A stretch of 26,895 nucleotides of DNA from a virus. The position numbers were made by a program, and so were the translations under genes. Position 1 is the first letter of the stretch. Each line of letters begins with the position of its first letter. Shown here piece after piece: positions 2,511 through 23,596 of this stretch. The stretch covers positions 1-26,895 of IMG/VR virus record IMGVR_UViG_3300022223_000020. One strand, written 5' to 3'. Under the pieces are notes generated by a model. It was not told the DNA's origin, ran no database searches, and saw nothing but the letters and a program-made list of their open reading frames with translations.

Positions 2511-3186
2511 GACCGCCCTCCCCCCGTCCGACGTAGATGCTGTCCCCGCCACCCGGGACCCGTGCAGGACTGGCCGTGCCCCAGTAGATCGGCTTGTTCA
2601 CGAGAGCGGGCAGGAACTTGAAGAACGCGTCGGTGAGGTCCGTTCCGGTGAGCCCTCCCCGGCGGAGCATGTCCCGATGGCTGTGGAGGTTGGTGAGCAC
2701 CGGCCCTCCCTGCTGGAACGCAGCGAGGCGCGAGACCCACCGGGTCTTCACGCTGACGGACCCGCCCCCCATCGATTCCGCCTGCTGGTCGTCCGTGACT
2801 GTGTAGGCGGTGTTCTGATAGCCTCGGAACTCCTCGAGGGGATCGGCGACGATGGTCCCCGCGGCGGAGTTCAGCAGCGCCCGGTAGACGATGACCTCGT
2901 AGCCGCGGAAGAAGTTGTTCAGCACGAGCGAGACGATGGATCCGTCGACGCCCGACAGCGCGACGGGGACGCCCTGGGCCTTGAGGTCCCCCGTCTCCTG
3001 GCTGCCCCCGTACTGGAGGTGTCCACCCACAGCCGCCCAGGTCTGACCGGACCAGCTGATGTCCTGGGCCGACGTCGCGATACGAAGCGTTCCCCCGGAG
3101 CTCTCCATCTGGATCAGGTGGATGATGTCGTAGCCCCGTTCCGCGGCCACGGCCGTCTGCATCCCGGAGGTGAGCGTGCGGGTCAT
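2497..3186 (-). CDS. Tail hub / baseplate-like protein (DUF2163-like)
   Basis: 229 residues from the ATG at 3186, which overlaps the stop of the distal-tail gene as ATGA and follows a GGAGGTTCC ribosome site. The protein opens with MTRTLTSGMQTAVAA and continues with beta-rich sequence (GGTLRIATSAQDISWSG). Its length, position and C-terminal pattern of a His-rich turn (LHSHRDMLRR) followed by FKFLPALVNKPIYWG resemble the DUF2163 / gene-transfer-agent hub family and lambda gpL-like proteins. These join the distal tail ring to the central tip. No enzymatic motif is visible. The assignment rests on order (tape measure, distal tail, this gene, NlpC-like, J) and on weak family resemblance, so the structural class is firmer than the exact family. 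Confidence 0.65.
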   Translation of the reverse strand: MTRTLTSGMQTAVAAERGYDIIHLIQMESSGGTLRIATSAQDISWSGQTWAAVGGHLQYGGSQETGDLKAQGVPVALSGVDGSIVSLVLNNFFRGYEVIVYRALLNSAAGTIVADPLEEFRGYQNTAYTVTDDQQAESMGGGSVSVKTRWVSRLAAFQQGGPVLTNLHSHRDMLRRGGLTGTDLTDAFFKFLPALVNKPIYWGTASPARVPGGGDSIYVGRGEGGRGEK

Positions 3187-3803
3187 GGAACCTCCCGGAA
3201 CGTCACCCGCAGGCCGGAGATGAACTGGCCGGGGCGTCCGGCCGGGGCGTTGTAGTCCCAGACCATCGCCCGGATGACGCATCCCGTACGCGTGATGGCC
3301 GCGTTGTCGGCCGGCGACGATCCCGCGGGGATCGGCGGGTTGATCTTGATGGTGGCGGCCCCGAGGCCATTCGACGAGGCGTCTTCCACCACTCGGAAAA
3401 GTGGGGTCAGGCCCGCGATCTTCAGCACGTCACCAGCCCGCACGACGTTCGTCACCGACGCGGACCATCCGTCCGTGTTCAGGCTCTCCCCGGTCTGGCT
3501 GGCTCCGGCCACGAGCGGGGTGCCGCCCCCGGCGCCCAGAGGCGCCTTCCCGGATCCGGGGAGCGCACTGTGGGTCACATCGAAGATCTGACTGGTGTGG
3601 AACGCCCACTCGACCCACGTGAGGAGCGCTTCCACGTCCGCCCGTCCCAGCCGGAGGTCGGCCCACGTCGCCTCCCACATGCGGCCGATCTGCTGAGACC
3701 CGAGCAGCTGGACACCACCGGAGCCGCCGACGGATCGCAGGCCGGTGGGAACCCTGGGGATGGTCTCCTGGCGGGGAAGAATCGTGCTGGGGAACGTGGC
3801 CAT
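3183..3803 (-). CDS. Distal tail / minor tail protein carrying a recurrent GTPLV beta domain
   Basis: 206 residues. The ATG at 3803 overlaps the tape-measure stop as TGATG and is preceded by GGAGGCGC. Residues about 1-90 and 175-206 look like a distal-tail protein (a short ring-forming protein at the end of the tube). They flank a region at about 94-172 that opens with GTPLVAGA and contains VVRAGD, IAG and PADNAAIT. The same pattern appears inside the second tail-tube protein (GTPLVQGA, VVRPGD, VAG, WADNSAVT) and, more weakly, in the coat protein (VKGD, FAGDSQTY). The module therefore looks like an accessory beta domain inserted into a virion protein. No enzymatic residues are evident. Location directly after the tape measure is the classical place for a distal tail protein. 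Confidence 0.7.
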   Translation of the reverse strand: MATFPSTILPRQETIPRVPTGLRSVGGSGGVQLLGSQQIGRMWEATWADLRLGRADVEALLTWVEWAFHTSQIFDVTHSALPGSGKAPLGAGGGTPLVAGASQTGESLNTDGWSASVTNVVRAGDVLKIAGLTPLFRVVEDASSNGLGAATIKINPPIPAGSSPADNAAITRTGCVIRAMVWDYNAPAGRPGQFISGLRVTFREVP

Positions 3804-5845
3804 CAGCGCCTCCCGCCCATCAGCTGCTGCAGCGTCGTGCTCTCCTGGATCCCCTCGGCCATCATCTGGAGGATCTCGCCCTTCTGTTCGCGGATGACCT
3901 GGGTTGCGCCCCTCGTATCGATGGCCGAGACGTTCAGGTTCTGATTGAGGTTGACCACGACGGCCTTGTTCGGACCCCCGATCGAGAAGGCGGACGACGG
4001 GGAGCCCTTGGGGCCTGTGTTCCAGATCGGTGAGCCCTTGGCCATCGCGCCACCGCCGTCCGAGACCGCCCCCCCATCGTCGAAGATCGATCCGATGAGG
4101 GGCTCGAGGATCGCCCGCTGGAACGCGAGTCGGATCAGGTCCGCGATGATGCTGTCGACCATGCGGTCGAAGGCCTCGGCGACGCTCTCGGTGCGGTTGA
4201 TCACCGCGAGGAAGCTGTCTTCGATGGCCCCGCCAGCGGACCGCACCATGTCCTCGAGCTCCCGCATGTTCTGCTCGTGGAGCTCCGCCTGCTCGATGAG
4301 CTGCTGGTTCGCGTCGTACAGACGCGCCGCCAGTTCGAGCTGCTCCTTGCTGGCGCCCCGTGCAGAGAGCCCCCAAAGGAGCAGGGCGCGCTCCCCCTGG
4401 GCGAGCTCCATGTTCTGGGTGTGGAGCGAGTCGAGCGTACCGTCGATGGCCTGCTGGTTCTGCTCCAGCTGGCGCTCGGCGTCCTTGCGCGCCTCCGCCT
4501 CCGCCTCGAGGGCCTCCACCTGCTTCCACTTCTCGACGATCTCGTCCTGAGCGGCGCCCACGATGCCGTCCTGGGCGAGCTTGAATCGGTACGCAGCCTC
4601 CTCACCCTCGCTGTAGAGCTTGATCTGCTCGTCGAGGGCGGTGTTGATGCCGGAGATCTTGTCGGCGAGAGCCTCGCCGATGCCGGCGGAGGGTGCGCTG
4701 GAAGAGGGGGTCGTCCCCGGACCGGCCTTCAGCGTGTCGAGCCGCTCCTGGATGAAGAGCAGGATGTTGTCGACATCGCGACCCGTGAGTCCGGCCTCCT
4801 TGAGGAGCCGATCATTCTCGTCGATGGAGCGGTTCGGGTCCGGCATGAGATTCACGAACTCGAGCATCCGCTGCTCGAGGACCCTGGGGTCCTTGATCTT
4901 CGAAAGAGATGCCTTGATCCCCACGGCAGTGGAGCTCTCGCCCCCGAGTTCCCCGAAGATCAGCGCCCACTCGGTGAGGAGTTCGCCCGATTGTCGGATA
5001 GCCCAGGACAGCCCGCCCCCGAGCGACACCGCCAGGCCGTCGCTGTTCTGGATGGCTTGGTCGAGGAGCCTCACCATGTTGGTGAGTTCCTTGTTCACTC
5101 CCTGGTCGCCGATGTCCTTCGCGAAGAGGGAGGCCGTGTCGGACAGGTTGGAGATCGAACCGTCGAGCGTGTCCATCTGCCGCGACATCCCGTCACCGAA
5201 GTTCTCCCGGGCGATCTCGCGGAAGAGCTCAACGACCGACCCGAAGTCCTTGTTCACCTCCTGGGTGACACCACGGAACGTGACCTTCAGCTTGTCGCCC
5301 TCGGCGCGTGCGACGACGCCGAAACTCTTGAGCGCCTCGGTCTCACCGGCACCGGCGCGGATCACTGCACTAGCGAACTCGGTGATGTCCCGGCCCATGG
5401 CGGCCGCGAAGTTTCCGAGGTCCTCGAGGTGCCCTACCGTAGGCGTGATGCCCACGGCGCTCAGTTGGGTGAACGCCTCGGTGAGGTTCTGGATCTCGAA
5501 CGGCGTGGAGCTCGCGAAGGCGGTGATCAGGTCGAAGGCCTGAGACGCGGCGTCCGTCGACCCCGTGATGGAGATGAGGCGGGCCTCGAGCTGCTCGAAC
5601 TCGCGGTTCGTGTCGAAGATGAAGCGTCCAGCGGTCTCCAGGACCCTGAACCCGCCGTACGCCGCCACGAGCCCGATGACGGCTTTGCCGGTCTTCAGGA
5701 ACTGGCCTTCCGCCCGATCCGCGGCCTTGCCGGACCGATCGATGGAGTCCTCGAGGTCATCCAGGCGCCGTTCGGCGCGCCGGATGGCGTTCTCGAAGTC
5801 TCTGGTATCGAATTCGAGGCCTACGACCTCGAGGTTGTCTCCCAC
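3803..5845 (-). CDS. Tail tape measure protein
   Basis: 680 residues from a GTG at 5845, with GAGGGGGCGG upstream; it starts 24 nt after the frameshifted chaperone stop. The N terminus (GLEFDTRDFENAIRRAERRLDDLED) is a coiled coil typical of tape measure proteins. It is followed by a hydrophobic segment near residues 53-70 (GKAVIGLVAAYGGFRVL). A region with STPFEIQNLTEAF and VGITP matches the conserved tape-measure domain (TIGR01541/PF10145-like). A long, charged coiled coil spans about 400-545 (VEKWKQVEALEAEAEARKD), and the C terminus is glycine/serine-rich. Such proteins set tail length and pass through the host envelope during DNA entry. It is the longest gene completely contained in the window and lies exactly downstream of gpG/gpGT-like chaperones, as expected. 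A tail of this tape length would be fairly short for a siphovirus. Confidence 0.93.
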   Translation of the reverse strand: MGDNLEVVGLEFDTRDFENAIRRAERRLDDLEDSIDRSGKAADRAEGQFLKTGKAVIGLVAAYGGFRVLETAGRFIFDTNREFEQLEARLISITGSTDAASQAFDLITAFASSTPFEIQNLTEAFTQLSAVGITPTVGHLEDLGNFAAAMGRDITEFASAVIRAGAGETEALKSFGVVARAEGDKLKVTFRGVTQEVNKDFGSVVELFREIARENFGDGMSRQMDTLDGSISNLSDTASLFAKDIGDQGVNKELTNMVRLLDQAIQNSDGLAVSLGGGLSWAIRQSGELLTEWALIFGELGGESSTAVGIKASLSKIKDPRVLEQRMLEFVNLMPDPNRSIDENDRLLKEAGLTGRDVDNILLFIQERLDTLKAGPGTTPSSSAPSAGIGEALADKISGINTALDEQIKLYSEGEEAAYRFKLAQDGIVGAAQDEIVEKWKQVEALEAEAEARKDAERQLEQNQQAIDGTLDSLHTQNMELAQGERALLLWGLSARGASKEQLELAARLYDANQQLIEQAELHEQNMRELEDMVRSAGGAIEDSFLAVINRTESVAEAFDRMVDSIIADLIRLAFQRAILEPLIGSIFDDGGAVSDGGGAMAKGSPIWNTGPKGSPSSAFSIGGPNKAVVVNLNQNLNVSAIDTRGATQVIREQKGEILQMMAEGIQESTTLQQLMGGRR

Positions 5846-5869
5846 GTCCGCCCCCTCATCATCACCGCA

Positions 5870-6366
5870 TCATCCCACGGGCTCGTTCCTCATCTCCATC
5901 CACGCCTGCCAGAGGAGCGGCTCCCCCAGCGGCATCAACTCCACTTCCTCCAGGCTCTTGCCTAGGAGCTCTCCGACGAGGAGTCGTCGCTGGAGGGCTC
6001 CGTCTTCTCGGACTTTTTTTTTGCGTCCTCCAGGGTCCCCGGGCCGCTGACCGAGGATGCGTACATGAACGCGATGACCCGCTGCAGCACGGCCCACTCC
6101 GCGCTCTCCAGGAGTTCGATACGGTCCCCCCACGTGAACGCCCGGGAGCCGTCCTCGAGCTCGGCCTTCTGGATGAGGAGGTAGACCCGCTTCTCGAGCT
6201 GGTTCTTGTTGGGATCCTTCCCGTCCTCCTCGCTCATCCGCTCTTCGACGGCCAGGATGTCGTTCGTTGTGAGGGGCGTGAAGTAGAGCGTCACCCCCCA
6301 CTCCGACACCTCGACGGAGCGGCGATTGTTGTGCCGAGCCTTCTTGATCAGGTCGATCGGTCTCAT
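5870..6366 (-). CDS. Tail assembly chaperone, long form made by -1 frameshift (gpGT-like)
   Basis: This is the frameshifted extension of the short chaperone. The shared first 118 residues end in the A9 run. If the ribosome slips back one base there, translation continues as VREDGALQRRLLVGELLG and ends at a TGA at 5870, giving 165 residues. The extension is amphipathic and tryptophan-containing (PLLWQAWMEM), as in lambda gpT-like tails that contact the tape measure. The phase works out: short-form codons begin at positions divisible by 3, and the downstream frame is offset by one in the direction produced by a -1 slip. The stop is 25 nt before the tape-measure start. By analogy with lambda, the long form would be made at low level and recruit tube subunits to the tape measure. 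Confidence 0.85.
5962..6366 (-). CDS. Tail assembly chaperone, short form (gpG-like)
   Basis: 134 residues from the ATG at 6366, 6 nt after the tail-tube stop. The N terminus (MRPIDLIKKARHNNRR) and the following beta/helical core (LYFTPLTTNDILAVEERM) resemble gpG-type tail chaperones. The C terminus after the lysine run is a disordered, serine-rich tail ending in SSDDSSSESS, the usual look of a zero-frame product ending shortly after a slip site. It lies between tail tube and tape measure, the standard place. It coats the tape measure during assembly and is absent from the mature virion in characterised phages. Only the frameshift makes the fused product, so both entries are needed. Confidence 0.85.
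   Translation of the reverse strand: MRPIDLIKKARHNNRRSVEVSEWGVTLYFTPLTTNDILAVEERMSEEDGKDPNKNQLEKRVYLLIQKAELEDGSRAFTWGDRIELLESAEWAVLQRVIAFMYASSVSGPGTLEDAKKKSEKTEPSSDDSSSESS
6014..6022 (-). promoter_or_regulatory. A9 slippery sequence for -1 programmed frameshift
   Basis: On the minus strand the codons GCA AAA AAA AAG contain nine consecutive A residues, the only such run seen in this GC-rich window. It lies 53-61 nt before the short-form stop, inside the chaperone gene. Slippage by -1 re-pairs lysine tRNAs without mismatch and opens the frame that ends just before the tape measure. No downstream pseudoknot was worked out by hand. Confidence 0.85.
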
Positions 6367-6372
6367 GTCACC

Positions 6373-7023
6373 TCAGTTCCAGTTGGGTGTGAGAGCGCCC
6401 TCGCCCTGGAAGTCGAATTCGACCTCGAAGAGCGCTCCGCGCTGAGCACGGATCCGGGCGTTCAGGGGCAGCAGGTCCCCCCAGAAGAGCTTCCCGTCGG
6501 CTGCTACCAGAGCCACGGCCAGGGCCGTCGGGTCGTCGTTGGTGTTCACCGCGTCGATGAACGCCTGCTGCTTCGCGTCCCCGTAGTCGAGGAGCGCCAT
6601 GATCCGGCCCTTCCAGTCCGGCGTGTCGAGCGTGATGCTCCGCGCCTCGTCGCCCATCGTGGTGACCTCGAGGACCGGCCGAGACACGGTGGCCTGCCAG
6701 TCCTTCACCTGGGCCACGGAATTCGACGCGAACGTCACCGCCGAGTTGTCCGCCCAGCCGCCACCCGGGACGACGCCCGGCGTGAACGTGACGGCCACCT
6801 GGTTCGGCGTGGGATCCCCCACGACGCCCCCTGTCTGCACCGTGTAGACCTGAGCGTCGCCTGCCACGGTGAACGTGTCGCCCGGGCGCACGACCCCGTT
6901 GAACCCGGCCCCGTCGATCGTGGCCGAAGTCGCGCTCTGGGCGACGGCGCCCTGGACGAGTGGCGTGCCCACCACCACGCCGCCCAAGACCGCCTTGCCT
7001 TTGATCCCCCGGTACTTGGCCAT
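6373..7023 (-). CDS. Major tail tube protein, paralogue with inserted GTPLV domain
   Basis: 216 residues from the ATG at 7023, separated by 3 nt from the preceding tube gene. The first 15 residues (MAKYRGIKG to GG) and everything from residue 101 on (NSVAQVKDWQATVSRP) align with the neighbouring 133-aa tube protein (NSVANVSAWDLTVSRP). Shared later blocks include MGD, LDY and NDDPT. Residues about 16-100 are an extra segment containing GTPLVQGA, VVRPGDTFTVAG and ADNSAVTF, placed precisely between GG and NSVA. Both proteins are expected to adopt the tail-tube beta barrel. The insertion would project from the tube surface, so this copy may form a decorated tube or be a minor variant. Which of the two forms the bulk of the tube is not clear. 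Confidence 0.8.
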   Translation of the reverse strand: MAKYRGIKGKAVLGGVVVGTPLVQGAVAQSATSATIDGAGFNGVVRPGDTFTVAGDAQVYTVQTGGVVGDPTPNQVAVTFTPGVVPGGGWADNSAVTFASNSVAQVKDWQATVSRPVLEVTTMGDEARSITLDTPDWKGRIMALLDYGDAKQQAFIDAVNTNDDPTALAVALVAADGKLFWGDLLPLNARIRAQRGALFEVEFDFQGEGALTPNWN

Positions 7024-7026
7024 GGC

Positions 7027-7428
7027 CTAGATCCAGCTGACCGTGACGGCGCCGTCGGTCTCGAACGGGAAGCTCACCTCGACGTGGTTCCCGACCCGCG
7101 CACCGATGGACGCCGACGTGGGCAGGATGTTGCAGCTGACCTGCTTCGGGCCGGTGCTGCTCACGGTGCCGACGAACGCCAACGGCGTCGGATCGTCGTT
7201 GGAGACCAGCATGTCGATGAGCGCCTTCTGGGCCAGGTCCGCGTAGTCGAGCCGGGCCGTGATGTTTCCGCGGCCGCCGGGGTAGTCCAGGTCCCCCGTC
7301 TTCGCGGCGTCACCCATGGACGTCCCCTCGATGTACGGACGGCTGACCGTGAGGTCCCAGGCCGAAACGTTGGCCACCGAGTTCCCGCCGATGGTGACGG
7401 ATCCCTTTACGCCTCTGTACTTCGCCAT
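7027..7428 (-). CDS. Tail tube protein, short paralogue
   Basis: 133 residues from the ATG at 7428; GGAGGGGAAG lies just upstream, a strong ribosome site. It begins MAKYRGVKGSVTIGG and carries TVSRP, SMGD, LDY and SNDDPTPLAF, matching the core of the longer paralogue encoded directly downstream. Predicted structure is beta-rich with one helix (LAQKALIDMLV), typical of small tail tube proteins. It follows the tail terminator and precedes the chaperones, as expected. The strong ribosome site and the short, uninterrupted domain make it the likelier bulk tube subunit, but this is inference. Confidence 0.8.
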   Translation of the reverse strand: MAKYRGVKGSVTIGGNSVANVSAWDLTVSRPYIEGTSMGDAAKTGDLDYPGGRGNITARLDYADLAQKALIDMLVSNDDPTPLAFVGTVSSTGPKQVSCNILPTSASIGARVGNHVEVSFPFETDGAVTVSWI

Positions 7429-7464
7429 CTTCCCCTCCTCCCGTTCCGCCGCCCCGTGCGGCTG

Positions 7465-7911
7465 TTAGACCGTCTCTCGCACCTCGAACGGAGCCGTGAT
7501 ATCCACGCGAGCTCCGCGTCCTTCGTCCGCACGTCCACCCGTCTGGCTGGAGATCGTCTCCGTGCGGGGCGCCGGTGGGCTCACTGCCCCGAACTCGATG
7601 CCGCCGCCCAGGTCCTTCAGGTTGAACGTGTCCCGCACGACATTCGCGTGGCCGTTCAGCGTCCCCAGGCCTCCCCCTGGAGGGCCGAAGATCGAGACCA
7701 TGACCACGCCGACGATGACGTTCTCCATCACTCCGTCGCCGCCCATGGAATCCTCGAAGGCGTCGCCCCAGAGGATGCTGAAGCGTGCCCATTCGGCGTC
7801 GTCCGGTGGATCGAAGTCCACGTTCGCCCACGCGATGGGGGTGCGGTCCGCCCATTGCGTGTTGAAGTGGGCCTCGATGGCCTGCCGGTACGCATCGATC
7901 GAACTAGCCAC
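7465..7911 (-). CDS. Tail terminator-like protein (DUF4128-like)
   Basis: 148 residues starting at GTG 7911, with GAGGATC 6-7 nt upstream and an 8-nt overlap with the previous stop. The N terminus (SSIDAYRQAIEAHFNTQW) is a helix followed by WANVDFDPP and WARFSILWGD. That layout (helix, short strand with PP, then strands) is the pattern of gpU / DUF4128 tail terminators, which cap the tube at the head-proximal end. The C terminus (ITAPFEVRETV) is a terminal beta strand as in that family. It lies between the HK97 gp10-like gene and the tube genes, the canonical position. No motif proves the function; order and fold pattern carry the call. Confidence 0.7.
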   Translation of the reverse strand: MASSIDAYRQAIEAHFNTQWADRTPIAWANVDFDPPDDAEWARFSILWGDAFEDSMGGDGVMENVIVGVVMVSIFGPPGGGLGTLNGHANVVRDTFNLKDLGGGIEFGAVSPPAPRTETISSQTGGRADEGRGARVDITAPFEVRETV

Positions 7912-8350: not shown

Positions 8351-8613
8351 GGGACCTCCTCGAGAACGAGGCCTCGCATCCACTGGAGAGCCCGCGCCAG
8401 GCGATCGCGCCACGTGATCGGCGCCTGCACCACGAGCGTTTCGAGCTCGCCGTCCAGGTCCAGCTGGGCGTGCAGCGTGATGGTCGCCGTGCACCGCTCG
8501 CCCATCTCCGCCTTCACATCGAAGGCGACGACGCCGTAGAGCGGACGGTCGTCCAGCTCGAGCATGAAGCTCTGGGCCGCCGGCCCGCCCCGGATCTTCA
8601 GCCTGTGGCGCAT
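8341..8613 (-). CDS. Small connector-region protein, unrecognised
   Basis: 90 residues. The ATG at 8613 shares its A with the stop of the head-closure gene (TGATG) and follows GAGGCGG. The protein is beta-rich and acidic in the middle, with FMLELDDRPLYGVVAFDVKAE, then ATITLHAQLDLDG, and a tryptophan-containing helix near the C terminus. I do not recognise the family. It lies between head-closure and gp10-like genes and overlaps both neighbours. That translational coupling suggests a role in neck assembly or a small virion component. It contains two Cys and no metal-binding pattern. Confidence 0.7.
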   Translation of the reverse strand: MRHRLKIRGGPAAQSFMLELDDRPLYGVVAFDVKAEMGERCTATITLHAQLDLDGELETLVVQAPITWRDRLARALQWMRGLVLEEVPCR

Positions 8614-8969
8614 CACCGCCTCGCCTGGATCTGGTAGAGCACCGGTGCCGTCACGGACCCGATGGGCTCCACGTGCACGACCTGGTACTCGTCCGTCCCG
8701 TCCCGCAGGCGGTCGTCGCTCTGGGGCTCGGTGAGTCCCTCGGCCGGGATCGTGATCTTCACGTCCCCGGCCTGAACGACGCCGCCGATCTCGCTCTGGC
8801 TGTACTCCTCGACGATGCCCTTCACGGACTTCGTGGTCTCGGTCGCCGCAGCGGTCCCTGTTGCCGGGTCGTAGGCCCCCCGCGTCGAGTACACGAGGGT
8901 GAAGCTCTTCCCGAATCGCTGGATGACCTTCAGCGCCACCGGCCGGATCGCGTTGAGTACCTGGCTCAT
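8613..8969 (-). CDS. Head-closure / neck protein
   Basis: 118 residues from the ATG at 8969, overlapping the preceding stop as ATGA. The sequence has the short beta-barrel pattern of head-closure proteins (SPP1 gp16 / HK97 gp9 class): FTLVYSTRGAYDPATGT, GIVEEY, GGVVQAGDVKITIPAEGL and DEYQVVHVEPI ending in a strand YQIQARR. The QAGDVK and DEYQVV blocks are typical. The whole protein aligns almost end to end with the C-terminal 111 residues of the upstream 586-aa protein (RGSYDPATGTA, GGTIQAGDLKVIVPA, TYQVVNVKP, YQLQVRR). It is therefore one of two copies of this domain. It sits between the connector proteins and gp10-like gene, fitting a neck role. Confidence 0.78.
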   Translation of the reverse strand: MSQVLNAIRPVALKVIQRFGKSFTLVYSTRGAYDPATGTAAATETTKSVKGIVEEYSQSEIGGVVQAGDVKITIPAEGLTEPQSDDRLRDGTDEYQVVHVEPIGSVTAPVLYQIQARR

Positions 8970-10726
8970 CGGCGGACCTGCAGCTGGTAGATGGCCACGA
9001 GCTCGCCGGAGTAAACCGGCTTCACATTCACGACCTGGTACGTCCGGGACCCAATCGTGAAACGGTCGTCGGTCTCGGGCTTCGTCAGGTCCTTGGCCGG
9101 GACGATGACCTTCAGGTCCCCCGCCTGGATCGTCCCGCCGAGTTCATGGGTGCGGTAGTGCTCCACGAGCGCGGAGACCTCGACAGCGGAGCTCGTCTTC
9201 GTCGCCGTTCCGGTCGCCGGGTCGTAGCTCCCGCGGGTCACGTAGGTGAGTGTGGCAGGCTCCCCGAACTGCCTGATGAGCTGCAGTGCCAGGGCAGGGA
9301 GGGGGCCGTCGAGCGGAGTCGGCGTGACGACGGTGACGGACGGATCGTAGAGGTACGCATCCAGCATCACCGACTTCGTGAGTCCCATCCGCAGGATCGC
9401 GGCGTCCACGCCGACGGTCAGTGCGTTGCGGGCGATGAGCGCTGCGTCGAGGCTCGCGGAGACCGAGCCCGTCACCATGATGGCCGCGCTCATGAGCACG
9501 GTCAGCGAGGCGCCCACCTGCTGAATCGCCGCGTCGAAGTCGACGGTGCGGACCATCGTGCCCGTGCCCGAGATGATGGACGCGTCGAGGCTCAGGCTCT
9601 TCGTGAGCACGGCCTGGATGGCGGCATCGAGGCTCGTGGTCTTCGTGAGGCCCAGCACCTGGAGCGCCGCGTCGAGGTTCGCCGTGACGGAGTTCCGGGA
9701 CTGGACCGCGGCGTCGAGGTCCAGCGTCTTCGTCAGGCCTTCCTGGCGGATCGCGCCGTCGAGGCTGACCAGGGCGCTCAGCGTCGCACGGATCGCCGCC
9801 TCAAGGCTGACCGTCTTCTGGATCGTGGCCTGGACGGCTGCGTCCAGCGAGGCGGACTTCTGGAGGCGCTTCTGCACCGCGGCATCGAAGCTGGCGGACT
9901 TCGAGAGCGTCGCCTGGATCGCTGCGTCGAGGGAGGTGGTCTTGGTGTAGGTGGCGGTAGCGCTCGCTACCCCGTAGGCTTCCACTCCCACCAACCTGAA
10001 CGGCCCCCATGGGTCCGCGGTGAGTTGGCGGACTTGGGCGTCGGTGAGCGCGTAGCCCTTGAAGATGTAGATGCCCTGATAATCCCCGAGCACCTGGTCG
10101 TTGCCGCCGGCGGAGAACGACCCGACGTTGAGGCCGTGCCCGCCCGCCGCCGACACGGAACCGAGGTCGGTATCCGTCGGGAGCGCCTTCCCGTTGAACC
10201 AACATTCCCCGAAGCCGCCCGCGTGACGCACCTCCGCGAGACGGACCTGCCCGGTGGGGAACGCGCCAACGTTGTGGTTCAGAGTCCGGAAACCACCATC
10301 GTACCACGCGAACTGAATCTGGTTGCTATACCAGTAGAGTTGCCAGAAGCCGTTCGACAGAGTGTCACGCGCATTCAGGTATCCCGGGTACCCGCCAGCG
10401 CCCACGTAGGAGTCGACGTCCACGGCGACGAATACGGAGAAGTCGATGTCCCCTTCCAGTTGCCATGCGTCGCGAGCCGGGTAACGCGCCACCTCACTCG
10501 TGGCGGCCGTGCGGTACGCCCGACCCACGGTAGTGATCACCGGCGAGCCCGTGTCCTCAACAGTCGGGCGAATGATCTCGTTGCGCGTATAGACGTGGTG
10601 GTCCCCCATGAACGGGATCCAGGCGGTGACGTGCTCCCAGAACCAAGCCCACTCCTTTCCCACCATCCCCGGGTCGATGACCCAGGGGAACGGCTTGATA
10701 GTCCCGGAGTCCGGCGCCTTGAGCAT
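8966..10726 (-). CDS. LamG-type domain + fourteen 14-residue repeats + second head-closure domain, fusion protein
   Basis: 586 residues from the ATG at 10726; the nearest ribosome site, GGAGG, is about 13 nt upstream. Residues about 60-245 form a concanavalin/LamG-like jelly roll: DFSVFVAVDV, FWQLYWYSNQIQFAW, GECWFNGK and the closing strand DYQGIYIFKGYALTDAQVRQL. Residues 261-459 are about fourteen tandem units of roughly 14 residues with consensus TKTxSLDAAIQxxL. Residues 476-586 copy the head-closure protein of the next gene, sharing RGxYDPATGT, GGxxQAGDxK and TDDRF/SDDRL positions. If the closure domain is incorporated in the neck, the repeats and LamG domain would stand out as a collar fibre or sugar-binding appendage. 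That role is inference; the three-part architecture is read directly. It may instead be a minor decoration protein. Confidence 0.85.
   Translation of the reverse strand: MLKAPDSGTIKPFPWVIDPGMVGKEWAWFWEHVTAWIPFMGDHHVYTRNEIIRPTVEDTGSPVITTVGRAYRTAATSEVARYPARDAWQLEGDIDFSVFVAVDVDSYVGAGGYPGYLNARDTLSNGFWQLYWYSNQIQFAWYDGGFRTLNHNVGAFPTGQVRLAEVRHAGGFGECWFNGKALPTDTDLGSVSAAGGHGLNVGSFSAGGNDQVLGDYQGIYIFKGYALTDAQVRQLTADPWGPFRLVGVEAYGVASATATYTKTTSLDAAIQATLSKSASFDAAVQKRLQKSASLDAAVQATIQKTVSLEAAIRATLSALVSLDGAIRQEGLTKTLDLDAAVQSRNSVTANLDAALQVLGLTKTTSLDAAIQAVLTKSLSLDASIISGTGTMVRTVDFDAAIQQVGASLTVLMSAAIMVTGSVSASLDAALIARNALTVGVDAAILRMGLTKSVMLDAYLYDPSVTVVTPTPLDGPLPALALQLIRQFGEPATLTYVTRGSYDPATGTATKTSSAVEVSALVEHYRTHELGGTIQAGDLKVIVPAKDLTKPETDDRFTIGSRTYQVVNVKPVYSGELVAIYQLQVRR
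9350..9946 (-). repeat. Array of about fourteen 42-bp units encoding 14-residue repeats
   Basis: On the coding strand the units encode TKTTSLDAAIQATL, SKSASFDAAVQKRL, QKSASLDAAVQATI, QKTVSLEAAIRATL and further diverging copies, up to TKSVMLDAYLY. Most are 14 residues; a few are 15 to 17. The L-D-A-A core is almost invariant, while the last units are the most divergent. DNA copies differ by many synonymous changes, so the array is old or protein-selected rather than a fresh slippage product. Confidence 0.9.
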
Positions 10727-10729
10727 CGG

Positions 10730-11119
10730 TTACGCCGTACCTCCGACCACCTGACGGGTCCGCACTGTGGCTGTCACGGAAGCGCCGGAGTCGTTGGTCA
10801 CAAGGACTTTGAAGCTGGAGATCGACGGGGGTACGGTGATCGCACGCCGGCGGGTCGCACTCACCGCGCTCGGCATCTCGAACCCCCACGGCCCGTCCAC
10901 TTCGGCCTCGTAGTTCGTGGCGTCCACGTCTCGCAGGATGTAGACCTTCGCGCCCTCGTTGACGGTGGCTCCGTAGGCGATCTCGACGGACACCTCAGTG
11001 CCCAGCTTGCCATCATTGGAGATGGCCGCAGTGGTGGCGTCAGCCGCATTCGCGATGGCCGACGAGTTGATTGACGTGGCGCTCCACGCGGCGTCGTGGT
11101 CGTAGTAGTACTGGCCCAT
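10730..11119 (-). CDS. Probable virion protein, beta-rich, unrecognised
   Basis: 129 residues from the ATG at 11119 with GAGGTGACCC just upstream. The sequence is low in charge, rich in Ala, Thr, Ser and Val, and starts MGQYYYDHDAAWSATSINS. Alternating hydrophobic strands (VSVEIAYGATVNEGAKVYIL, ISSFKVLVTNDSGASVTATV) suggest a beta sandwich. It has no cysteine, no signal peptide and no enzymatic motif. It immediately precedes the LamG-repeat gene and follows another small unknown, so it may be a decoration protein or a partner of the appendage. The family is not recognised. Confidence 0.75.
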   Translation of the reverse strand: MGQYYYDHDAAWSATSINSSAIANAADATTAAISNDGKLGTEVSVEIAYGATVNEGAKVYILRDVDATNYEAEVDGPWGFEMPSAVSATRRRAITVPPSISSFKVLVTNDSGASVTATVRTRQVVGGTA

Positions 11120-11127
11120 GGGTCACC

Positions 11128-11490
11128 TCATGCCGGAGCGTCGAATGTGCGCCCGATGTGGGCGTAGGTCGCCTGGTACCGGGCCGCCATCTTGGTCTTC
11201 TCGGCAGCGTACATCGCCTGGAGGGCAGCGACGTGTCCAGCCTGGTCGCGGGAAGGGTCCGGGCCGTACCGCGCCACGAGCCATGCCAGCGTCCCGGCGT
11301 CACACTGGGCCTTCTCGGAAGCCGAGAGGGCCGCGGCGACGTCTCCTTCCGTGGGCGCCGGTGTTGGGACCACGGTGACAGTCTGGCCATCGCCCCCGGT
11401 GTACGTCTTCGGGGTGGGGATCGGGAAGAGGAACAGCACCCCATAGGTGCCATCCCTCGTCCCGCCGAGCGCCCGGATCTCCTTGGCCAT
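11128..11490 (-). CDS. Small protein of connector cassette, unrecognised
   Basis: 120 residues from the ATG at 11490, 3 nt after the lipoprotein stop; there is no convincing ribosome site, so translation may depend on coupling. The N-terminal part has FLFPIPTPKTYTGGDGQTV and a proline-rich stretch (VVPTPAPTEGDV). The C-terminal half is helical and alanine-rich (LSASEKAQCDAGTLAW, AALQAMYAAEKTKMAARYQ) and could be a short coiled coil. There is no signal peptide. I do not recognise it. Its place between a lipoprotein and virion-type proteins says only that it is late-expressed. Confidence 0.68.
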   Translation of the reverse strand: MAKEIRALGGTRDGTYGVLFLFPIPTPKTYTGGDGQTVTVVPTPAPTEGDVAAALSASEKAQCDAGTLAWLVARYGPDPSRDQAGHVAALQAMYAAEKTKMAARYQATYAHIGRTFDAPA

Positions 11491-11493
11491 GAG

Positions 11494-11871
11494 TCAGTAC
11501 GTCGTGATCGTAGTGGACGCACTGGAGCCGTTGAGCAGACTCGTGGCGGTGATCGTCGCGGTCCCAACCTGGCTTTCGGCGCGCACGAGCCCGCTTTCCA
11601 ACACCACCGACACCACGCTCGGGTTTGACGATTTCCAGTAGACCAGCGCGACCTGCGCCTCCTTGTTCGCGGTCCAGGCGCGGCATACGTCCTGTTCATG
11701 CGTGGCGACGGCAAGCGAGGCCCCACACAGTACTTCGGCTACCACGCTCGCTGCGTCTGCGCGGTCCACGGCGTCGTTGAGTTTCTCGATGCCGCTGATG
11801 CTGTTGAGGTCGCACGCCCCCACCCCCACCAGCACCGCTACCAGCACGAGAATCCGAGTCCAGATCTTCAT
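11494..11871 (-). CDS. Lipoprotein with bacterial Ig-like (Big_2-type) domain
   Basis: 125 residues from the ATG at 11871, preceded by GGGGGG with 1 nt between the upstream stop and this start codon. The N terminus is a textbook lipoprotein signal: MKIWTR, a hydrophobic stretch (ILVLVAVLVGV), then lipobox VGAC with Cys20 as the lipidated residue. A short helical linker (ISGIEKLNDAVDRADAASVV) and two further cysteines follow. From about residue 75 (VALVYWKSSNPSVVSVVLESG, VGTATITATSLLNG) the sequence matches the bacterial Ig-like Big_2 pattern. It would sit in the host envelope rather than the particle, although it is embedded in virion genes. Possible roles are superinfection exclusion or alteration of the host surface; neither is shown. 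A second possibility is a cell-wall or envelope component used at lysis. Confidence 0.85.
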   Translation of the reverse strand: MKIWTRILVLVAVLVGVGACDLNSISGIEKLNDAVDRADAASVVAEVLCGASLAVATHEQDVCRAWTANKEAQVALVYWKSSNPSVVSVVLESGLVRAESQVGTATITATSLLNGSSASTTITTY

Positions 11872-11872
11872 G

Positions 11873-12235
11873 TCATCCCCCCGGGGCGAGTTGCCCCACG
11901 TTGAAGCGTTCTCGGGCGACCACCACATGGTCACCCAGGATGTGGACGAAGACGCCATCGACCTCGATGACGAGCATCGTCCGGTAGATCTCGTCCGAGA
12001 CCCACGGCTTGCGCTGCCGGTTCTGCACGACGCGGGTGCCCCCACCGATGACCGTGACCTTCAGGCCAGCGGAGACGGCCGAGACCGACGAATGCGGGCG
12101 CGTGAACACCTGCTCCCCCGGGATCTCCTCAGATCCGTCGAGGTAGGCGATCTCGAACTCCGCGCCTCGAGGAGGCAGCACGAGATCGCGCACCATCTGC
12201 AGCGTCGCGTCGTCCATTCCGGCCAGTGCCTGCAT
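11873..12235 (-). CDS. Connector/neck-region protein, unrecognised
   Basis: 120 residues from the ATG at 12235, 2 nt after the upstream stop with a weak GAGATC ribosome site. The N terminus is helical (MQALAGMDDATLQMVRDLVL). The rest is beta-rich, with IPGEQVFTRP, LKVTVIGGGTRVVQNRQRKPW and MLVIEVDGVFVHILGDHVVV. The layout of a short helix followed by a beta barrel is compatible with a small neck or head-tail joining protein. I cannot name the family. Longer frames that start far upstream overlap the 177-aa gene and are discarded. Confidence 0.7.
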   Translation of the reverse strand: MQALAGMDDATLQMVRDLVLPPRGAEFEIAYLDGSEEIPGEQVFTRPHSSVSAVSAGLKVTVIGGGTRVVQNRQRKPWVSDEIYRTMLVIEVDGVFVHILGDHVVVARERFNVGQLAPGG

Positions 12236-12237
12236 GG

Positions 12238-12771
12238 TCAGATCTCGTCGTACTCGAACGTGGCCGTCTCCGCGGCGAGGAGCGCCGGAGATGACCCGGG
12301 CTCGACCTCCATCACGGCGATGAGGTAGCTGCCCATGTCGGTGGAGGTGGCGGTGTACGGGCCCGCACCCAGTGAGAGGGGCGCGGCGGACGTGTACGTG
12401 AACGCGTCCGTCATCGCGGCCGGCGTGCCGTTCACCGGTGCCTGAGGCGGATCGTTCGTCTCGGTGGGCACGCCCGGGGTCGCGTACGCAGCCACGGCCC
12501 GTGCCCAGAGCTTCACGCCGGCGGCCCATCCCTTCGCGCCGTCCATGTAGAAGTTCAGGTTCGTGATCTGGCTCGAGGGGCCCGTGGCGCCGATGAACAT
12601 CCGCAGCCACTTCTCGAAGCTGTACTCCTGTCCGGATGTCGGAACGACGAGCGGGTTGTTCAGGTCGACCGTGGCGTTGTCCGCATTCTTGAAGCGGACG
12701 GTGCTCCCGTCCTTGTTCGTCGCGGTCTCGCCTACGCCGTTCTTCTCGCGGACGTTCACTGTGGCGGCCAT
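12238..12771 (-). CDS. Probable head/decoration protein, unrecognised
   Basis: 177 residues from the ATG at 12771 with AAGGAGATAGCCC upstream. It starts MAATVNVREKNGVGETAT and contains FEKWLRMFIGATGPSSQITNL followed by FYMDGAKGWAAGVKLW. Alternating beta strands and a Pro/Thr-rich middle (VPTETNDPPQAPVNGTP) give a virion-protein look. There is no signal peptide and no Cys. It lies between the DnaT-like connector gene and a small neck protein. A capsid decoration or head-completion role is plausible by position only. Confidence 0.75.
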   Translation of the reverse strand: MAATVNVREKNGVGETATNKDGSTVRFKNADNATVDLNNPLVVPTSGQEYSFEKWLRMFIGATGPSSQITNLNFYMDGAKGWAAGVKLWARAVAAYATPGVPTETNDPPQAPVNGTPAAMTDAFTYTSAAPLSLGAGPYTATSTDMGSYLIAVMEVEPGSSPALLAAETATFEYDEI

Positions 12772-12783
12772 GGGCTATCTCCT

Positions 12784-13311
12784 TCAGGACCTCGAGATCG
12801 GGAACGTGAGTGAGCTCGGGGTGGTCAGAAGGGGCCGCAGATACCGCAGCACCTGAGCGGGCAGCGTGCCCGCTTTGCGCTCGTGGCGGGGGGTCACGGA
12901 TAGGGGCCCCACCTTCACATCCTCGAACCCCTCCAACCCGCTATCCGTGAGAGATACCCCCCCGCCAAGCACTTCCAACGCGAGCTCCAGCGTGGCCTTC
13001 TTGACCCGCTCCGGAATCACGTCGGACTCGTACGTCCAGCCTTCGTCGTCCTGGGCGCTGTAGCGCGGCCACTTCAGGGCCTGCGTGGTGCCCGAGGACG
13101 TGCCGCTCAGAGGGCTCACCGGGCTCCCGACGAACTCCTCCTGGTCGATGCGTTCGGTTGCGAGGATCAGCGCCCGGCCCTTCTCGTCCGCCGACGCACC
13201 CGTCCACGCGGTGACGCCGGAGCGACCCTCGAAGAAGGCATCTCCTTCGACGACGGACGCATACGCGTTCGCGTCCGATGCGCCGACGGTCGGGGTGACG
13301 GTCACGGCCAT
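12784..13311 (-). CDS. Head-tail connector protein, DnaT-like (DnaT_2) family
   Basis: 175 residues from the ATG at 13311 with GAGGAGCTGACCT upstream. The N-terminal block, DANAYASVVEGDAFFEGRSGVTAW, then KGRALILATERID, then LKWPRYS and a helix ERVKKATLELALEVL, is the pattern usually annotated as DnaT-like ssDNA-binding protein in phages. In virion cassettes these proteins act as head-tail adaptors (gp6-like), and the DnaT name is probably misleading here. It follows the coat protein and the 114-aa protein and precedes small neck proteins, which supports the connector reading. The C terminus carries a basic strand-turn region (SVTPRHERKAGTLPAQVLRYL). Confidence 0.78.
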   Translation of the reverse strand: MAVTVTPTVGASDANAYASVVEGDAFFEGRSGVTAWTGASADEKGRALILATERIDQEEFVGSPVSPLSGTSSGTTQALKWPRYSAQDDEGWTYESDVIPERVKKATLELALEVLGGGVSLTDSGLEGFEDVKVGPLSVTPRHERKAGTLPAQVLRYLRPLLTTPSSLTFPISRS

Positions 13312-22740: not shown

Positions 22741-23361
22741 CTACGCTGCCTTCAGGCAGACGCCACACGCCGCCGACATCTGCGCCTCGGCCACCTCTGG
22801 CCTCTTCCTGGCCGCGGCCACCAGGAGCTCCGTGGCCCCAGCCGCCGCACCCGCACCGTACCGCCGCACCACTCCCACGAATTCCTCCACGTCGTGGCCC
22901 CGGATCGCATACTTCGGGCTCCCATCCCGGTGAAACTTCGGCATCCCCCAGCGGTCGATCTCCTGGGCGCAGTGGTAGAGTTCATGCTCGACCAGCGCAC
23001 ACCAGGTGGCGTGATCCACCGCGTTCGCGTACGGGGCGTAGAACGTGAGCACGAAGTCCGGGACGGCCTCGAACCACTCCCTGAGCTGGAACTCCTGGCG
23101 GGCCTTCACCCAGGCGGAGCCTCGGAAGAACGGGATCTCCGCGGTCGCTGCGATATCGAGCTGCTTGCTCCGGGCCGGCTCACTCGTCCAGAGCACACCG
23201 ATCTGCGCGCCGATGAGGTGAGCGTGGTCTGAATTCACGAGCGGGCCACCTGGATCGATGAACGTCTCAGCGATCCACGCGGCAAGCTCCGGGGCCGGGA
23301 GGAACTCGCCGAAGGCCGCGGGCTCGAGGAGAAGGGCGGGGGGGCGTGGGCGCTCGGTCAT
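22741..23361 (-). CDS. Putative phage metallopeptidase (HELxH)
   Basis: 206 residues from the ATG at 23361, overlapping the previous stop as ATGA; the longer open frame upstream is not coding-like. The active-site motif is CALVEHELYHCAQE (about residues 118-131), with a HELxH zinc-binding core and possible Glu/His ligands in nearby GHDVEEF. Upstream are FIDPGGPLVNSDHAHLIGAQ and SKQLDIAATAEIPFFRG. These match the PhageMetallopep-type family of small phage peptidases (PF18894 as I recall). The C terminus contains two Cys (ACGVCLKAA). The substrate is unknown. It is transcribed just before the terminase genes, so it may be an early-late accessory protein. Confidence 0.8.
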   Translation of the reverse strand: MTERPRPPALLLEPAAFGEFLPAPELAAWIAETFIDPGGPLVNSDHAHLIGAQIGVLWTSEPARSKQLDIAATAEIPFFRGSAWVKARQEFQLREWFEAVPDFVLTFYAPYANAVDHATWCALVEHELYHCAQEIDRWGMPKFHRDGSPKYAIRGHDVEEFVGVVRRYGAGAAAGATELLVAAARKRPEVAEAQMSAACGVCLKAA

Positions 23362-23573
23362 GACGCCTTCCGAATCGCTTCGCGAAGGGCTCGCTCGAGC
23401 GAGATGTGATGCGGCACCTCGATCACGGCACTCTCCGATGGGAACACGATGAGTCTGGCGTTCCGGTGCTTGGAGTGGCGGTGGATGAATACCTGAGGCC
23501 CGCCGTTCGGATTGAACGGCTCTTCGATCTGCCTCGCGCAGACCGGGCAGTCGACGTAGACCAGGTCCTCCAC
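23358..23573 (-). CDS. Small CxxC/His zinc-binding protein, unrecognised
   Basis: 71 residues if the GTG at 23573 is used; an alternative GTG lies at 23588. The open frame extends further up through the stem-loop at 23597, which is unlikely to be translated. Sequence: DCPVC near the start (Cys9, Cys12) and IHRHSKHR (His31, His33, His36) could bind zinc as CxxC-HxH. The C-terminal helix is ISLERALREAIRKAS. It has a DNA- or RNA-binding look, but the family is not recognised. It overlaps the metallopeptidase start as ATGA, so the two are likely co-translated. The start is the weakest point of this call. Confidence 0.6.
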   Translation of the reverse strand: MEDLVYVDCPVCARQIEEPFNPNGGPQVFIHRHSKHRNARLIVFPSESAVIEVPHHISLERALREAIRKAS

Positions 23574-23596
23574 ACATCCACCCCCCACACGCAAGA

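Follow-up and report, generated by a model that had tools for sequence, protein, structure and literature searches.

Why should a virus that encodes an ordinary head-closure protein (Hc1, the stopper) also encode, immediately upstream, a much longer protein that ends in a second Hc1 domain? The locus considered here raises this question. The window, that is, the whole stretch of 26,895 nucleotides that was analysed, is a 26.9-kb viral record (IMGVR_UViG_3300022223_000020) from an uncultured long-tailed phage, in which Pfam and PHROGs identify a minus-strand siphophage structural module. Its genes include a large terminase, a DUF4055 portal, a Mu F-like head protein, a scaffold, a P22-like coat, the head-tail adaptor Ad1, Hc1 and Neck1, as well as a tail terminator, tail-tube-like proteins, a chaperone, a tape measure, and Dit-like and central fibre-like genes, the central fibre-like identity of positions 1-2169 having been assigned by eye from the sequence. 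Elsewhere in the window, the annotations of 22741-23577 conflict, PHROG_513 giving 'transposase' and Pfam the PhageMetallopep family (PF18894). The features around the two Hc1 domains are as follows.

8613-8969, minus strand: free Hc1, 118 aa; its own Shine-Dalgarno sequence is not clear.
8966-10726, minus strand: 586-aa fusion gene with a LamG-like N-terminal part, a 14-residue repeat spacer and a C-terminal Hc1 (from the open reading frame, family matches and coding-frame composition).
8969-9304, minus strand: fused Hc1 (stopper) domain, residues 475-586, with its N-terminal helix at 476-487 (from PHROG_161, a family HMM, AlphaFold and the PDB).
9356-9955, minus strand: repeat spacer, residues about 258-457, about 13 units of 14-15 residues with the consensus LTKTxSLDAAIQAx.
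9992-10549, minus strand: putative, probable LamG/concanavalin-like jelly roll, residues 60-245 (from the profile-profile score).
10730-11119, minus strand: 129-aa partner gene, upstream of the fusion gene (both of its viral relatives directly precede a LamG gene).
8970-12783, minus strand: inserted segment of about 3.8 kb between Ad1 and the free Hc1, the largest of about 125 loci compared.
12784-13311, minus strand: head-tail adaptor Ad1, to which Hc1 is expected to dock (PHROG_477, E 1.2e-31).

The 586-aa protein described in the sequence-only reading is an intact open reading frame with exactly the end coordinates given there, running on the minus strand from 10726 to 8966. Its start is preceded by GGAGGT, and the whole frame looks coding because the third-codon-position GC, read in rotated sub-frames, stays at 83-93% in all three parts. 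The stop codon of the fusion gene and the start codon of the free Hc1 overlap as ATGA, which suggests that the free Hc1 is translationally coupled to the fusion gene. The 200-residue repeat spacer noted in the same reading is real, its self-identity at lag 14 being 0.30, where the 99% limit from shuffles is 0.17; a tblastn search found no phage relatives of it. Antisense to the fusion gene, the plus strand has an open frame of 642 aa (9146-11074), which high GC content most likely explains.

By family and by predicted fold, the C-terminal domain is a head-closure Hc1. PHROG_161 (head closure Hc1) matches residues 478-586 with an E-value of 3.1e-21, covering positions 9-119 of the 120 in the profile. 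Structure prediction of residues 476-586, proposed beforehand as a check, returned the stopper fold: the AlphaFold model, based on 56 aligned sequences, has a pLDDT of 90.4 and consists of an N-terminal helix and a beta barrel, and its top PDB matches are phage necks and stoppers (T1, FCWL1, SPP1 gp16, R4C and a gene transfer agent), with a TM of about 0.6 to the T1 stopper. The domain had been taken for a complete copy of the adjacent head-closure protein. It is complete, aligning end to end with the 118-aa Hc1 (E 2e-30), but at 49% identity it is a paralogue and not a copy. A tree of 65 sequences pairs the two domains as sisters (support 99/76, and in all 200 bootstrap trees), so that a lineage-specific duplication is the simplest history. 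Against a family HMM of 63 relatives, the score is 129 bits for the fused domain and 120 for the free one, and the motif YDPATG and other family-conserved residues are kept in the fused domain, which argues that it is not decaying. With the stopper fold and these residues retained, its incorporation into the neck is credible.

For the N-terminal part, a LamG-like fold had been claimed at residues 60-245, to be checked by structure prediction of residues 1-260. Neither a Pfam search, which gave no LamG match (PF13385) even up to an E-value of 10, nor AlphaFold, whose model from three sequences was unusable (pLDDT 38) and matched nothing in the PDB, bore this out. What speaks for the fold is a profile of 47 LamG domains drawn from bacterial genomes, against which the N-terminal part reaches a profile-profile score of 24.7 (E 0.0013 for one comparison), the C-terminal half being aligned in the correct register. 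Sixty shuffles of the same part scored at most 16.8, and 269 of 270 phage ORF decoys scored lower than the real sequence; the sole higher decoy is CPKG_00053 of KBS-S-2A, a gene directly before Hc1 that is annotated as a virion structural protein. A whole-protein alignment was left unused for folding, its LamG rows being misplaced onto Hc1. Close relatives of the N-terminal part were not found in viral contigs (three queries), in 50,697 phage records or in 274 genomes, the patterns of one search having been loosened by adding artificial variant rows to its alignment. The lone weak match to an N-terminal query was rejected, since it falls in an unrelated dehydrogenase-like gene.

The setting of the gene also bears on the fold. 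Searches of viral contigs turned up two relatives of the 129-aa partner gene (38%), and directly after each comes a gene for a protein in which Pfam recognises a LamG domain (E-values 2.7e-21 and 9.8e-14). These two LamG proteins are those of loci L158 and L159. Given the profile score and this synteny, we consider the N-terminal part to be probably a LamG domain, whose carbohydrate binding would be expected from the type of fold only. The alternative that survives best retains the anchoring in the neck and makes the N-terminal part another beta-sandwich, or a structural appendage (a collar or whisker, or an assembly aid) that binds no sugar. It gains from the poor model and missing Pfam match of residues 1-260, and from the carbohydrate-binding module on the neck fibres of phage A-1(L), which did not bind the host (PMC10966104); it is possible, if rather unlikely, in view of the profile match, in register and above the shuffles and nearly all decoys, and of the true LamG genes beside the partner-gene relatives.

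The relatives of the partner gene offered further candidates. In the LamG protein of L159, the LamG domain is followed by a Ser-rich spacer, which at 7094-7846 continues in another frame into a domain of about 105 aa, the frame changing inside the repeat array. This domain, seen by eye as a possible second head-closure fusion, was rejected: its Hc1-profile score was 11.1, with shuffles reaching up to 15.0, and it had no library or PDB match. On the same record, locus L165 carries LamG inside a gpL-like minor tail protein (1003-2334) and a gpJ-like central fibre (2686-6582). Fusions of tail terminator and LamG, hinted at by a match of PHROG_347 (tail terminator, 394 positions) to LamG in L165, were dropped; the matches of PHROG_347 in genomes cover the terminator part alone, and the one long frame inspected is an ordinary 118-aa gene.

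The explanation that we favour, with about even confidence, is that an Hc1 duplicate fused to a LamG-plus-spacer protein joins the plain Hc1 in a mixed closure ring. The head-closure gene would have been duplicated in tandem in this phage lineage, as the tree supports, and one copy would have become the C-terminus of a LamG-like, repeat-spacer virion protein, as the layout of the sequence indicates. In solved structures, the stopper is a hexamer that sits beneath a 12-fold adaptor ring and touches it with the N-terminal segment of its subunits (PMC9701221, PMC10276861). Because both copies keep the stopper fold, both could dock on the adaptor ring after packaging; because the fused domain retains the adaptor-contact helix, directly preceded by the spacer, the likeliest design appears to be a ring, presumably a hexamer, in which plain and decorated subunits are mixed. 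The spacer would depart from the stopper at this helix and make the LamG domains project outward from the head-tail joint, where the arms, judging by their type of fold only, may act as weak, auxiliary binders of glycans, whether extracellular or on the host surface. The jelly-roll-type genes between Ad1 and Hc1 in some relatives, the LamG domains inside other tail proteins of L165, a plain and decorated pair of tail-tube genes in the same window and the precedent of carbohydrate-binding modules at the neck (PMC6669499) count for this explanation; against it, an N-terminal addition of 475 residues at the adaptor-docking helix could hinder assembly.

The position of this long addition would also suit a fusion lying outside the closure ring, with the free Hc1 forming the ring alone and the fusion attached to the capsid or the tail, or being an assembly dead end. 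The window does contain a free full-length Hc1 that could make the ring without the fusion, and the LamG-type proteins of relatives are separate genes that need no Hc1, which is compatible with attachment elsewhere. We nevertheless regard this as unlikely, given that neither the stopper fold nor the residues conserved in the family are less well preserved in the fused domain than in the free Hc1.

To gauge how unusual the fusion is among Hc1 loci, our survey included at least about 150 loci on viral contigs (in overlapping lists), three on genome contigs and 16 matches in 398 bacterial genomes. Among the roughly 150 viral loci listed, the three on genome contigs and the 16 bacterial matches, there was no Hc1 fused to a long protein and no second intact Hc1; locus L069 has a partial second Hc1 on the other strand (3832-3972), and some long stop-to-stop frames at Hc1 loci were dismissed as fusions, since in our judgement their upstream parts do not look coding. 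That no standard gene has this three-part layout thus holds among the surveyed loci, where no other such gene was found, and a limited literature collection contained no paper on a LamG-stopper fusion. Most of the loci have Ad1 and Hc1 separated by 59-96 or about 540 bases; at 3.5-3.9 kb, the window has the widest gap of about 125 loci. The next largest intervals, in L091 and L055, hold a protein of 186-187 aa and a PHROG_5939 'tail protein' of 411-600 aa whose C-terminal motif looks jelly-roll-like by our reading, with no Pfam LamG match; together with CPKG_00053 of KBS-S-2A, they make up the few relatives in which jelly-roll-type proteins adjoin Hc1 as separate genes. Within the interval of the window, the product of 11494-11871 is a small protein that matches Big_2 (Ig-like) and has at its N-terminus, judged by eye, a lipobox-like sequence (LVGVGAC); it is possibly a phage-encoded lipoprotein. 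As the fusion is unique among the loci compared, conservation gives no proof that it is under selection as a fusion. That two genes were joined by an error of assembly or sequencing is most improbable: although the fusion is known from a single metagenomic record and no second copy was found, its frame is open with an even coding composition throughout, the sole in-frame start near the Hc1 part is an ATG about 20-25 codons upstream without a clear Shine-Dalgarno sequence, and the paralogue is too diverged for a collapsed repeat.

A second pair of tandem paralogues lies among the tail genes of the window.

6373-7428, minus strand: two tail-tube-like paralogues, a plain one (7027-7428) and one with an insert of about 80 aa (6373-7023), with 45% identity over 123 aa.

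A counterpart of the insert lies in the Dit-like protein (within 3183-4529; E 2.6e-8), and residues 220-324 of the coat resemble it more weakly. We tentatively propose that the stopper and the tail tube, successive rings of the virion, are each built from tandem plain and decorated paralogues that arose by duplication and decoration. If this were true, the stopper hexamer would serve as both DNA gate and anchor for lectin-like arms. For a decorated stopper as such, an essential DNA gate duplicated and made the anchor of a likely adhesive arm, we know of no earlier case. The closure ring, which keeps the DNA sealed in, might then also bear adhesive appendages; this would single out the neck as a place for phages to add domains for binding, and would provide a searchable sequence signature, namely a second Hc1 domain ending a long virion protein.

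In fold, conserved residues and position before the tail genes, the fused domain resembles the known stoppers (SPP1 gp16, lambda gpFII, PHROG_161); these are normally a single protein of about 118 aa, whereas the window has two copies, one of them longer by 475 residues. The LamG proteins of L158 and L159 share the upstream partner gene with the fusion, that of L159 also has a repetitive spacer, and L165, with LamG built into core tail proteins, is comparable to LamG in a stopper fusion; unlike the fusion, the LamG proteins of these three loci have no recognisable head-closure domain attached. Anabaena phage A-1(L) bears neck fibres with a distal carbohydrate-binding module at the head-tail joint (PMC10966104), but these are three separate fibre proteins on a 15-mer neck ring, with no stopper fusion, and since its module showed no host binding, a role in adhesion is not to be assumed for the fusion. 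In the 936 lactococcal phages, neck appendages carry carbohydrate-binding modules, and two modules, one of them neck-derived, bound host cells (PMC6669499). The neck passage structure of the 936 and P335 phages thus places such modules at the neck (PMC6669499), as proposed for the fusion, but it is anchored by a separate ring whose N-terminal domain is BppU-like, a type that neither Pfam nor PHROGs reported in the window protein, and its module is C-terminal. In the fusion, the anchor would be a C-terminal stopper paralogue and the module N-terminal. Neck-borne sugar-binding appendages are already known; building them on the stopper itself would be a new way of anchoring them.
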